From Terriglobales bacterium (lineage in GTDB: Bacteria; Acidobacteriota; Terriglobia; Terriglobales; Acidobacteriaceae): a stretch of DNA of 64,000 nucleotides. Below the pieces are notes generated by a model. It saw nothing but the letters and a program-made list of their open reading frames with translations. It was not told where the DNA came from and ran no database searches. Positions 11,424-14,556 of the stretch are shown piece by piece. The translations under genes were made by a program, and so were the position numbers. The stretch spans positions 124,001 to 188,000 of the forward strand of contig JAICWP010000004.1 in the NCBI GenBank assembly GCA_025934735.1. Direction: 5' to 3'. Numbering within the stretch: the first letter of the stretch is position 1; each line of letters opens with the position of its first letter.

Positions 11424-12407
11424 CTACTCGATAGGTTCAAAAATAGCGGGCTCCGCCTCCCGTCCGTTGGGCAATTGCACCAGCACCGTAGCCAATAGCA
11501 CCAGGACGATTCCCGCCACCTGAACCGGGCGGACCAGTTCGCCCAACGCCAAGGCCGCGATCAGAATGGAGAACACCGGCTCGAGGCAACTGGTCACGAT
11601 GGCGCGGGTGGCATCCAGATGCTGCAGCCCGGCAAAATAAAACAAGTACGGCACCAGCACGGAAATCACCGCGAACACCAGCAGGAACAGCCACTCCGCC
11701 GCGCTGTAGCCGGCCGCGACAATCTTCCAGGGCGGGTTCACCACCAACCAGAACAGCGCCGAGCCCAACAACACATACACGAGGATGCGCCAGTGGTCGT
11801 GCCGCGTGAGCAGGTCGTGTCCACCGACGTTGTAGAAAGCAAAAGCCAAGGCTGCCACCAGTGCCGCAGCTACCCCGGCGGCATTCAGATTAAAGCGCCC
11901 ACTGCCGACAATGCCGATGGATAAGGCGCAGCCGAGGACAGCCAGGGCCACCGAACTCACGCGCTGCGCGCTGGCCCGCTGGCGCCCGCGCGCCACCATG
12001 TACAGCAACACCCACACCGGCGCGGTGTACTGCAGGATGATGGCTACCGCCACATTGGTCTTCTGGATGGCGAAGTAATAGAAGTAGTTGGAAGCGGCCA
12101 CTCCCAGAACGCCCAGCACCAGGCAGCGGCTGAAATCGCCCCGCGGCAGCGCCATTCCCAGCCATCCGCGGCGCCACCACAAGAATGGCGCCAGCAGCAG
12201 CAGGGAGAACGTGGTGCGTGTCTGCGCCAGGATGAGCGGATCAATGGAGCGCAGCCCCGGCGCCCCGGCCAGCAGGCGCCCGGTAAATGCCGCCCGTCCC
12301 AAAGTAGCGGAGATGCCGAAGCAGAGTGCAGCCGCGGCTATGTACAGGTATCCCCGGAGGGGGTGGGGCTTAGCCGGCAAGAAGGTCGTCGAGGCGCTCC
12401 GGATCAA
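11424..12407 (-). CDS. EamA-family (DMT superfamily) transporter
   Basis: A 327-residue inner-membrane carrier with ten predicted helices arranged as two EamA repeats (about 20-165 and 175-310; YLYIAAAALCFGISATLGRA opens the first). Members export metabolites or amino acids; the substrate is not visible. Start choice is uncertain: TTG at 12407 is in frame, but TTG at 12380, overlapping the stop of the selenoprotein gene, would also leave all helices intact. The overlap with the upstream grx-like gene points to translational coupling. The C-terminus is hydrophilic and acidic (NGREAEPAIFEPIE). Confidence 0.85.
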   Translation of the reverse strand: MIRSASTTFLPAKPHPLRGYLYIAAAALCFGISATLGRAAFTGRLLAGAPGLRSIDPLILAQTRTTFSLLLLAPFLWWRRGWLGMALPRGDFSRCLVLGVLGVAASNYFYYFAIQKTNVAVAIILQYTAPVWVLLYMVARGRQRASAQRVSSVALAVLGCALSIGIVGSGRFNLNAAGVAAALVAALAFAFYNVGGHDLLTRHDHWRILVYVLLGSALFWLVVNPPWKIVAAGYSAAEWLFLLVFAVISVLVPYLFYFAGLQHLDATRAIVTSCLEPVFSILIAALALGELVRPVQVAGIVLVLLATVLVQLPNGREAEPAIFEPIE

Positions 12408-12606
12408 AGCCGATCATCACTTCCTGCCCGATCACCAGCGTGGGCGTGGAGCGGCTTTGGTAGGTCTCAACCAGCTCTCGGACTGCGTTGGCATCGTTGC
12501 TGACGTCGCGCTCTTCGAACTCGATACCTCTCGCCGAGAGGTAGGCCTTTACTGTTCGGCAGGGCGGTCAGCCGGGTTGGGTGAATACGATAATCGGGCT
12601 CTTCAT
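12370..12606 (-). CDS. Glutaredoxin-like selenoprotein (in-frame TGA as Sec13)
   Basis: Reading from ATG at 12606 gives a 78-residue glutaredoxin-fold protein if the TGA at 12568-12570 is decoded as selenocysteine. The start is MKSPIIVFTQPG-U-PPCRTV, so U13 replaces the first Cys of the usual glutaredoxin CPxC site (UPPC). Downstream are a beta-alpha pattern, the cis-Pro motif SRSTPTLVIG and the C-terminal FDPERLDDLL. Codon structure is intact on both sides of the TGA. A perfect hairpin at 12525-12543 fits a bacterial SECIS. No strong Shine-Dalgarno is visible. Neighbours are osmC upstream and eamA downstream on the same strand. The alternative is a recent Cys-to-stop mutation. Confidence 0.8.
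12525..12543 (-). promoter_or_regulatory. Putative bacterial SECIS hairpin
   Basis: On the minus strand TACCTCTC-GGC-GAGAGGTA forms a perfect 8-bp stem with apical loop GGC. The loop starts 32 nt after the TGA. The published bacterial SECIS model expects a G in the first two loop positions, a short upper stem, and about 16-37 nt between UGA and apical loop; all three hold. The stem is inside codons 22-28 of the glutaredoxin-like reading frame. Confidence 0.7.
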
Positions 12607-12651
12607 AGGCACATGAGACGCTCAAGCGTACCAGAACGTCGCCTTTAATTG

Positions 12652-13050
12652 TCAGACGTATTCGATGGTGGCGGTAATCCTAGCTGTTTTCTGCAGCATG
12701 GCTGAAACCGAGCAATATTTCTCCTTGGAGAGGCGCACCGCGTCCTCAAGCGCCTTTTTCGAGACCTGGCCGCCCACACGGTAGGTGAGCTTGATCGAGG
12801 TGTAAACGGTGGGGGGTTCTGCAGCGCGCTCCGCCTCCGCCCGCACTTCCAGAGAGGTGAACGGCTCGCGCTTTTTGCGCAGGATATTGACCACATCCGT
12901 GGCGGTGCAGCCGCACAGTCCGATCAGAACCAGTTCCATGGGACTGGGCGCGGTCTTTTCCTTGGCCGCATCCAGCACCACAGCATGGCCGCTCGTGGCC
13001 TGGCCCAGGAAACGTTCGTTGTCAGTCCACTTCGCAGAGGCAGTGATCAT
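12652..13050 (-). CDS. OsmC/Ohr-family peroxiredoxin-like protein
   Basis: A 132-residue OsmC-fold thiol peroxidase or related protein. The two family Cys are present: one in GLCGCTATDV (with an extra Cys) and one in KYCSVSAML. ATG at 13050 (MITASAKW) is preferred to the in-frame TTG at 13062 that abuts the CDF stop. It is placed between the CDF transporter gene and the glutaredoxin-like selenoprotein gene on the same strand. OsmC proteins reduce organic hydroperoxides using dithiol reductants; a link with the neighbouring redoxin is plausible but inferred. Confidence 0.88.
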   Translation of the reverse strand: MITASAKWTDNERFLGQATSGHAVVLDAAKEKTAPSPMELVLIGLCGCTATDVVNILRKKREPFTSLEVRAEAERAAEPPTVYTSIKLTYRVGGQVSKKALEDAVRLSKEKYCSVSAMLQKTARITATIEYV

Positions 13051-13062
13051 AGTCGTCTTCAA

Positions 13063-14490
13063 TTACCGTGTATTATCCGTTTGCGGCTCAGGATGAATGA
13101 GCACTCGAAACAGCTGGGGCGCCGCCTGCTTAAAGCGGATTTCCAGTTCGGTGATGACATCATGTACGCGCGACAGCGGCAGGTTGTCGGACATGGTGAC
13201 ATGGCAAGACAGATACAGGCGCCCTCGTACGCGCTTAATTTGAACGTCATGCAAATCAAGTACCTCCTTGAAATCCCTCACATTTCGCTTTAATTTCCGC
13301 TCCAGCTCGCGGTTCTCCCCTATCTGGTCGCCGGTCTCGATGGTGGAGGGTTCGCTCTCAATGTGCGTCAGGATGGAGGAAATCTCCGGGATCTCGTCGC
13401 GAATCTCCGATTCCAGCGTGCTGACGCGGTCGTGCGCCTGCAGCAGGCTGAGCTGTTCATCCAGTTCCAGATGCTGTTCCACATGCAGGCGCCCACCCAG
13501 GTCCTGAACGCTCACGTCATGGACGTTCAGGTTATTGCGCATGGCTACCGCGCGAATGCGGTCGAAAATGTTCTCCCCACGACCCGCCTGGGGAATGGAA
13601 TGCACCATCACGTCGGCATCGGGTAAAACGCGGTGCACCGCCGCGGTCACAGAATGCGCCATCTGCTCCGAGCGCTGGAAGGTGAGGTTTCGCCCCAGGC
13701 CCACGGAAACATCGGCGAAGTAGTGGTTCCCTGCCCGCCGAATCCGTACCCGGTCCAGTTCCAGCACGCCCTCCAGCTTGGAAATTTCATCAATGATGCG
13801 GGCGCGTATCCCGGTGGGGGCGGCATCCAGCAGCGCGTCTACCGTCTTGCGCGCCAGCCGCGAGCTCACGTACATGATCACGCAGGCTACGAACAGGGCT
13901 GCGATGGGATCGGCGTCGCGCAGCCAGTCCACGTGGAAGATCCGCCCCAGCGCAACCAGCAACAGGCCCAGCACCACCACCGCGCTCGACCATATGTCGG
14001 TGCTGAAGTGCAGCGCGTCTGCTTCCAGGGCCTGGCTATCGTATTTGACGGCGATCCGCCCCAGCGCCCGCGATCGCCAGAAGTCCACTCCCATGGACAG
14101 GAACATCACCAGGAAGGCCGCTATGCTGGGCTCAATCTCAATATGCCGGTAAAACAGCCGGACAACGGCTTCATAGATGATCCACACGCAGGTGAGCAGC
14201 AGCAGCCCCGTCTCCAGGAAGGCGGAGAAACTTTCTACTTTGCCGTGGCCATACTGGTGGTCGGCGTCGGCCGGCTTGTCGGATACGCGAACGGAAAATA
14301 ACGTGATCAAGGCGGCGATCAGGTCCAACCCCGAATGTGCCGCCTCCGAGAGGATACCCAGGCTCCCGGTGGAGACCCCTACAACAATTTTGAGCGCGGT
14401 AATGCCAATAGCGGCTACAACCGAATTGCCGGCCACAGCGCGCTTCTCCGCGCGCATCGAATCGGGGGTCAGGATCGCCGGATCGGCCAT
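13063..14490 (-). CDS. Cation diffusion facilitator (CDF) metal exporter with long C-terminal region
   Basis: A 475-residue proton/divalent-metal antiporter of the inner membrane. Six TM helices span about 15-215. The metal site is supported by HSGLD in TM2 and HFSTD in TM5, and HQYGHGKVE follows TM2. The cytoplasmic part is unusually long (about 220-475) and looks like two or more dimerisation/metal-sensing ZT-dimer-type repeats (DRVRIRRAGNHYFADVSVGL; LDLHDVQIKRVRGRLYLSCH). ATG at 14490 is chosen because GATAAT-N7 precedes it. The gene heads a run with osmC, the Sec-glutaredoxin and eamA. Confidence 0.9.
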   Translation of the reverse strand: MADPAILTPDSMRAEKRAVAGNSVVAAIGITALKIVVGVSTGSLGILSEAAHSGLDLIAALITLFSVRVSDKPADADHQYGHGKVESFSAFLETGLLLLTCVWIIYEAVVRLFYRHIEIEPSIAAFLVMFLSMGVDFWRSRALGRIAVKYDSQALEADALHFSTDIWSSAVVVLGLLLVALGRIFHVDWLRDADPIAALFVACVIMYVSSRLARKTVDALLDAAPTGIRARIIDEISKLEGVLELDRVRIRRAGNHYFADVSVGLGRNLTFQRSEQMAHSVTAAVHRVLPDADVMVHSIPQAGRGENIFDRIRAVAMRNNLNVHDVSVQDLGGRLHVEQHLELDEQLSLLQAHDRVSTLESEIRDEIPEISSILTHIESEPSTIETGDQIGENRELERKLKRNVRDFKEVLDLHDVQIKRVRGRLYLSCHVTMSDNLPLSRVHDVITELEIRFKQAAPQLFRVLIHPEPQTDNTR

Positions 14491-14497
14491 CTGCAGA

Positions 14498-14503
14498 ATT
14501 ATC
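14498..14503 (-). promoter_or_regulatory. -10-like element for a leaderless start of the CDF gene
   Basis: GATAAT on the minus strand is separated by 7 nt from ATG at 14490, with no Shine-Dalgarno between. It fits a leaderless transcript, though no convincing -35 was seen. Confidence 0.35.
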
Positions 14504-14556
14504 GCTTTTTCCCGCCAGTGCGCCAAAGCTTCTGGCGAGGTAGTTGAGCCCGCCGT

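Follow-up and report, generated by a model that had tools for sequence, protein, structure and literature searches.

In bacteria, selenocysteine (Sec) is inserted when SelB binds an mRNA hairpin just 3' of a UGA codon and delivers Sec-tRNA to the ribosome. Sec-containing glutaredoxins with a UxxC site are, in the literature as available to us, an established class, and several small redoxins have been characterized that bear on the locus described here. The native selenoprotein cGrx1 has a U(or C)PXC site and has been proposed to reduce the methionine sulfoxide reductase MsrA (PMC7642778, in part). BC3987 is described in the available text of PMC3720550 as closer to the peroxiredoxin-reducing redoxins than to NrdH, and as able to reduce class Ib ribonucleotide reductase (RNR); the same source has Cp9 passing electrons from thioredoxin reductase to a peroxiredoxin. 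For the Acidobacteria, four selenoproteins of three families have been listed (PMC1794560, in part), and three known selenoproteins have been counted for Occallatibacter riparius, an acidobacterium, with no names given in the portion of the paper available (PMC12013277).

Here we describe a gene in a 64,000-nt stretch of a Terriglobales genome (hereafter the window) which at first sight is cut short by a stop codon. The gene is almost certainly whole, its TGA being decoded as Sec, and its product belongs to a branch of acidobacterial selenoproteins that annotation treating every TGA as a stop would miss or truncate.

A redoxin frame with a single TGA

The gene occupies 12606–12370 on the minus strand and comprises 78 codons followed by TAA. 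Translated with TGA as U, it yields an unbroken 78 residues beginning MKSPIIVFTQPGUPPC, in which U13 is the single odd codon; a script check placed the ATG at 12606–12604, the TGA at 12570–12568 and the TAA at 12372–12370. Translation therefore confirms the initial annotation, which had claimed a full glutaredoxin-fold frame of 78 residues with one TGA where the first active-site Cys (UPPC) is expected. By eye, no clear ribosome-binding site lies 5' of the ATG at 12606, and a GTG at 12612 offers an alternative start. From the alignment of homologues and the distribution of SelB described below, the TGA is predicted to be read as Sec, and we hold that prediction, taken together with the assignment to the redoxin class and leaving the partner of the protein aside, with very high confidence.

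Homologues and selection beyond codon 13

Homologues were gathered from a scan of genome contigs (13 loci), from 61 relatives (E ≤ 1e-8; matches in 21 genomes) and from 399 genomes of the class (E ≤ 1e-13; matches in 42 genomes). Among the 57 members compared, window gene included, codon 13 is TGA in 38, which come from several families, and Cys (TGC or TGT) in 19; aligned as the initial annotation had proposed, U13 of the window gene thus faces Cys in 19 homologues and TGA in 37 others. These counts refer to fetched loci, 12 of the 42 matches listed from the class sample having no locus there (two of them, in G031 and G055, had already been fetched from the 61 relatives as L052 and L053), and they leave out L024, a duplicate of L040, the decayed copy L056, and L033, whose match misses codon 13. 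In a sample of the phylum, 13 of 396 genomes match at E ≤ 1e-10, so the branch is patchy; loci inspected from this sample, which stand outside the counts, carry either TGA (L083, L084, L087) or Cys (L082, L085, L086).

Downstream of the TGA, uncorrected pN/pS ranges from 0.19 to 0.65 against 25 TGA relatives (approximately 59% identity or more), and third codon positions vary most in each of these 25 comparisons. The rows for L050, L051 and L074 were excluded because the fixed-frame comparison ignores a one-residue gap; L076 was not screened for such a gap. The pattern indicates that purifying selection extends beyond the TGA. Homologues ending at this codon had been named as grounds against the Sec reading, and it was found instead that the TGA homologues stay constrained past it.

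An in-frame TGA is also what one would see in a pseudogene, or in a gene for a short peptide truly ending at the TGA with a relic frame downstream, and a relative does hold a truly decayed copy (L056 in G013). Against this stand the recurrence of the TGA at codon 13 in 38 members of several families with constrained codons beyond it, and the hairpin described below, which covaries and which the majority of Cys members do not have. We regard this reading as highly improbable.

The decayed copy itself (match at ~1507–1671) lies behind genes for a cation-efflux (CDF) protein and OsmC; it carries three TGA codons according to the search and has lost the second active-site Cys. Its genome retains another U-x-x-C relative, L054, as well as SelA and SelB.

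A recoding hairpin in the window gene

Downstream of the TGA, at 12543–12525 on the minus strand, the arms TACCTCTC (12543–12536) and GAGAGGTA (12532–12525) pair perfectly over 8 bp around a GGC loop (12535–12533), with an energy of -9.9 kcal/mol for the hairpin alone. The initial annotation had described an 8-bp hairpin with a GGC loop starting 32 nt downstream; stem length and loop stand, while the distance is that of the loop, the stem beginning at 24 nt. The bacterial SECIS limits given in the available part of PMC13188914 are a loop of 3–9 nt, an upper stem of 4–16 bp, a G at loop position 1 or 2, a loop 16–37 nt after the UGA, and an energy of -7.5 kcal/mol or below. The window hairpin, with its 3-nt GGC loop, 8 bp, 32-nt distance and -9.9 kcal/mol, falls within them, which bears out the SECIS assignment suggested earlier.

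None of 500 synonymous-codon versions of the peptide reached the score of this hairpin. Over the full 61 nt of this stretch the fold energy was not unusual (z = -0.34), so that energy by itself would have missed it, and an Rfam scan of 12300–12750 returned nothing meaningful, its four snoRNA/sRNA matches lying far under their gathering scores.

Two hairpin positions in one redoxin family

For each member, the best hairpin near the published limits (PMC13188914; our script allowed loops of 3–14 nt) was set against 500 shuffles in which the peptide was recoded with synonymous codons. For every species the shuffles followed the codon usage found in eight genes of the window. The hairpin beats these shuffles (p ≤ 0.05) in 27 of the 38 TGA members and in none of the 19 Cys members, with median scores of 19 and 8.5, respectively (Mann–Whitney p = 3e-9), although the members are related and the shuffle counts are not strict probabilities. 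At this threshold the hairpin did no better than the shuffles in the remaining 11 TGA members (L022, L025, L037, L041, L064, L065, L067, L068, L070, L077, L079), one of which, L067, has a mismatch in the stem core.

The best loop positions of the TGA members fall into two groups, one with the loop 31–32 nt past the UGA (26 members, to which alignment adds L067) and one at 23 nt (11 members). The 27 members of the first, hereafter the 32-nt group, belong to families f1 and f2, while the 23-nt group draws on f7, f10 and f15 and also includes a Bacillota member and, from one f1 genome, a second copy. Around codons U+9 to U+11 the sequence that forms the 5' arm in one group forms the 3' arm in the other (alignments A1 and A2; columns 18–46 from the UGA).

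Covariation was assessed within each group. For the 32-nt group the score was 0.229 against 0.111 in shuffled alignments (0 of 500 as high) with 94.0% of cells paired, and sliding the partner by 1–3 columns lowered it to at most 0.068; weaker measures gave both-side changes in four of eight pairs, a number that 22 of 500 shuffles also reached, and an unremarkable count of additional pair types (131 of 500). The 23-nt group, on its own structure, showed both-side changes in four of nine pairs and a score of 0.295 against 0.121 (0 of 500), with 89.9% of cells paired. Exchanging the structures gave poorer fits: the 23-nt structure applied to the 32-nt group paired 50.6% of cells with a score that 376 of 500 shuffles equalled or exceeded, and the 32-nt structure applied to the 23-nt group paired 65.9% (36 of 500), which is much worse than that group's own structure, though not nothing.

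Codons within the stem are unusual for the genome. Where the 32-nt group has Arg at U+13, the codon is AGA in 18 of 22 cases, whereas eight genes of the window use AGA for 1.2% of their 168 Arg codons; in the 23-nt group, whose stem stops short of this codon, Arg is CGN in seven of seven. All 27 members of the 32-nt group encode Leu at U+10 by CTC or CTT, while CTG accounts for 61% of window Leu codons.

Taken with the recurrence of the TGA, these hairpins speak to a further explanation, namely a sequencing error in which the true codon is TGT or TGC. The source genome is a draft (4.94 Mb, 50 contigs, 99.83% complete), which leaves some room for such an error, yet many other genomes have TGA in this place too, accompanied by a hairpin that is missing from most Cys members, and we give the possibility negligible weight.

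One Cys member, L044 (CAPC; G028, 1639–1695 on the minus strand), retains an 8-bp stem in almost the same position (p = 0.098). Its genome contains selA and gave no selB match at 1e-60. The stem looks like a SECIS relic and the locus like a recent Sec-to-Cys change.

The family tree is built on few columns and has many unresolved forks, and for this reason we do not call either hairpin position the older one. The two positions nonetheless provide a comparative set on the spacing and loop needs of SelB.

Selenocysteine machinery in the source genome and its relatives

A genome-wide profile search of the source genome recovered selB (351.5 bits), selA (554 bits) and selD (366 bits), along with a tRNA-Sec of anticodon TCA (Rfam 70.6 bits, with ARAGORN in agreement), so that every component for which a search had been suggested at the outset is present. 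The window itself holds neither SelB nor tRNA-Sec, as had been claimed: the only tRNA found in it is a tRNA-Gly, and the selB match over the cut-off is on another contig. The selD gene (L010 1480–2541, G000:C5) itself carries one in-frame TGA, in AGUASK.

Across the sampled genomes, a SelB match occurs in 42 of 42 with a TGA member against nine of 18 with a stop-free member (Fisher p = 3e-6, a value that ignores the relatedness of members and is not a strict probability, as holds for the second p value below). The 42 comprise all 17 TGA genomes of the first set, all 23 further ones of the class sample, and the genomes of L022 and L025; in one of them, G233, the SelB is a fragment and scores under the curated cut-off. 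Stop-free genomes with SelB are G031, G335, G284, G427, G293, G349 and those of L023, L026 and L028; SelB was not found in G028, G016, G034, G254, G133, G329, G403, G381 and G367, the last two being only 71–72% complete. Four genomes (G229, G259, G089, G099) were counted as TGA by the search's '1 TGA' flag alone, and six (G427, G284, G293, G381, G367, G349) as stop-free by its 'none' flag. G013 and G014, with two matches each, entered once, as TGA genomes; the genome of L024 is G004 (identical selB place) and was likewise counted once; and the search left out seven loci of the contig scan (L027, L029–L034). Without the four uninspected TGA genomes and the two incomplete stop-free ones, the comparison becomes 38 of 38 against nine of 16 (p = 6e-5). 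Since nine SelB genomes carry a stop-free member, SelB does not force the use of Sec. In Bacillaceae, the genomes of L026 and L028 (Pseudoneobacillus and Neobacillus) combine a CPPC relative with SelB matches of ~358 bits.

The UGA might also be read through as another residue, with a Trp, Cys or other suppressor at work and the hairpin there by chance; Cys at codon 13 in 19 homologues would suit this. The neighbouring osmC, on the other hand, ends in TGA, and TGA is thus an ordinary stop in the adjacent gene, while the Sec machinery in the genome, SelB in all 42 TGA genomes, and a hairpin that beats shuffles in TGA members only all argue for Sec. Readthrough as another residue seems to us very unlikely, marginally more so than decay.

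Fold, family and electron supply

With C substituted for U, the protein passes the glutaredoxin profile PF00462 (58.7 bits; gathering score 22.9) and narrowly misses that of the YruB-family redoxins, TIGR02196 (86.3 bits; cut-off 88.55). Every one of the 55 aligned members matches TIGR02196 at E ≤ 0.001, with a best value of 7.3e-26. An AlphaFold2 model on the 55-member alignment has a mean pLDDT of 95.0 and a pTM of 0.85, and the best solved matches by sequence and fold are BC3987 (3zij, 3zit) and cGrx1 of Clostridium oremlandii (7c10, 7c12). The 'glutaredoxin-like' label of the initial annotation therefore holds for the fold, with the refinement that small redoxins of the BC3987/cGrx1 type are its closest relatives of known structure. 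With the same very high confidence as given above for Sec decoding, we predict the product to be a Sec-containing redoxin of the YruB/BC3987/cGrx1 type.

Other assignments fitted less well. The protein lies below the cut-offs of the matched NCBIfam UXX-star (seleno)protein families NF041212 (60.1 bits against 66), NF041211 (100) and NF041114 (72), misses that of NrdH-redoxin TIGR02194 (44.4 bits against 85.75), whose site, C-[VIM]-Q-C (PMC3720550, in part), differs from UPPC, and misses that of glutaredoxin 3.

In the proposed mechanism, SelB on the downstream hairpin would bring Sec-tRNA to the ribosome at the UGA. In the finished protein, U13 would serve as the attacking selenolate of the U-P-P-C site, directed at a substrate disulfide or an oxidized cysteine; C16 would then resolve the mixed selenide-sulfide, and the U–C bond would be reduced again, most likely by a flavoenzyme of the thioredoxin reductase type rather than by glutathione. 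Two families of glutathione synthesis, PF04107 and TIGR01380, were not found in the genome (the search was for these two, with other gamma-glutamylcysteine ligase families and bifunctional enzymes outside it), which makes a glutathione-dependent glutaredoxin less likely and a thioredoxin reductase the probable electron source. The redoxin is thus probably fed by a thioredoxin reductase, and perhaps reduces OsmC.

Gene neighbourhood and candidate partners

The window gene sits in a row of genes on the minus strand. An osmC-family gene (12652–13062; PF02566, 1.5e-19), the candidate partner, lies 45 nt upstream, preceded by a CDF gene (13063–14526), and an eamA transporter frame (11424–12407; PF00892, 1.1e-37) follows downstream, given here as the longest frame from a TTG, the true start being unsure. 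Neighbours were sought in the relatives at E ≤ 1e-8, in flanks of ~1.5 kb for most loci. Of the 27 members of the 32-nt group, 22 have osmC and 22 have CDF upstream in the same orientation (both in 18, at least one in 26), and 25 have eamA downstream. In the 23-nt group, osmC, CDF and eamA are all absent from the fetched flanks of the 11 members. Among the 19 Cys members, one (L044) has all three neighbours, the only one with osmC in its fetched flanks, and L023 and L076 have eamA downstream; because they keep neighbours, all three appear to have changed from Sec to Cys at the same locus. L023 and L076 belong to genomes having SelB, and the replacement of Sec by Cys there seemingly came without loss of the Sec machinery.

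The conserved row CDF–osmC–redoxin–eamA suggests concrete partners. Since relatives keep it, the likeliest job of the protein would be electron donation to OsmC, or the repair of thiols during peroxide or metal stress. The link to OsmC is one of gene position, and we put the chance that OsmC is the direct partner at somewhat less than half.

An even chance goes to the protein being a selenoprotein that serves as a general thiol reductant, an NrdH-like donor to ribonucleotide reductase, or a helper of CDF or EamA, with no special tie to OsmC and with shared regulation accounting for the row. In its favour, the related families include NrdH (TIGR02194, 1.4e-11), and class Ib RNR is a substrate that BC3987 can reduce (PMC3720550, in part). 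Members keep eamA no less often than osmC (25 against 22 of 27), three loci (L038, L062, L063) lie directly behind CDF where osmC was not found, and the 23-nt group lacks all three neighbours in the fetched flanks. Yet osmC is upstream in 22 of the 27 members of the 32-nt group, and BC3987 is placed nearer the peroxiredoxin-reducing redoxins than NrdH (PMC3720550, in part).

Joining the OsmC reading to the two hairpin positions gives a broader proposition, that the recoding hairpin was relocated within one redoxin family while fold and site stayed unchanged, and that the f1 redoxin is a dedicated selenium-dependent OsmC reductase; we advance this tentatively, with rather less than even confidence. 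If true, the family would be a natural experiment in SECIS relocation inside a coding sequence.

Comparison with known systems

By titles and the beginnings of abstracts, which set the scope of our literature search, we did not meet the acidobacterial UPPC branch, its gene row or the two hairpin positions; branch and neighbourhood thus look unreported. With supplements outside that scope, an earlier listing of the acidobacterial redoxin in a supplementary table is possible.

The window protein shares its UxxC motif with the selenoprotein glutaredoxins (PF00462) of Geobacter, Clostridia and the Sargasso Sea, whereas the acidobacterial branch and its gene row go unmentioned in the parts of those reports available to us (PMC13188914, PMC1794560, PMC1088965). 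The UXX-star families (NF041212, NF041211, NF041114) are, like it, glutaredoxin-like with Sec first, by their names, but for two of them the accessible text of PMC13188914 gives UxxT and GxGU motifs in place of UPPC. BC3987 of Bacillus cereus is close in sequence and fold (phmmer 1.4e-16, TM ~0.9, 48–50% identity) and has a -PPC- site; it differs, as do redoxins of the Cp9/YruB type, in having Cys where the window protein has Sec. With cGrx1, which comes from Clostridium, the middle residues are PH rather than PP, and the proposed partner is a selenoprotein MsrA and not OsmC (PMC7642778, in part). In other respects cGrx1 is much like the window protein, being a small redoxin of the thioredoxin fold with Sec first in its U(or C)PXC site (PMC7642778, in part) and matching it in Foldseek at a TM of 0.86–0.93 and 38–39% identity.
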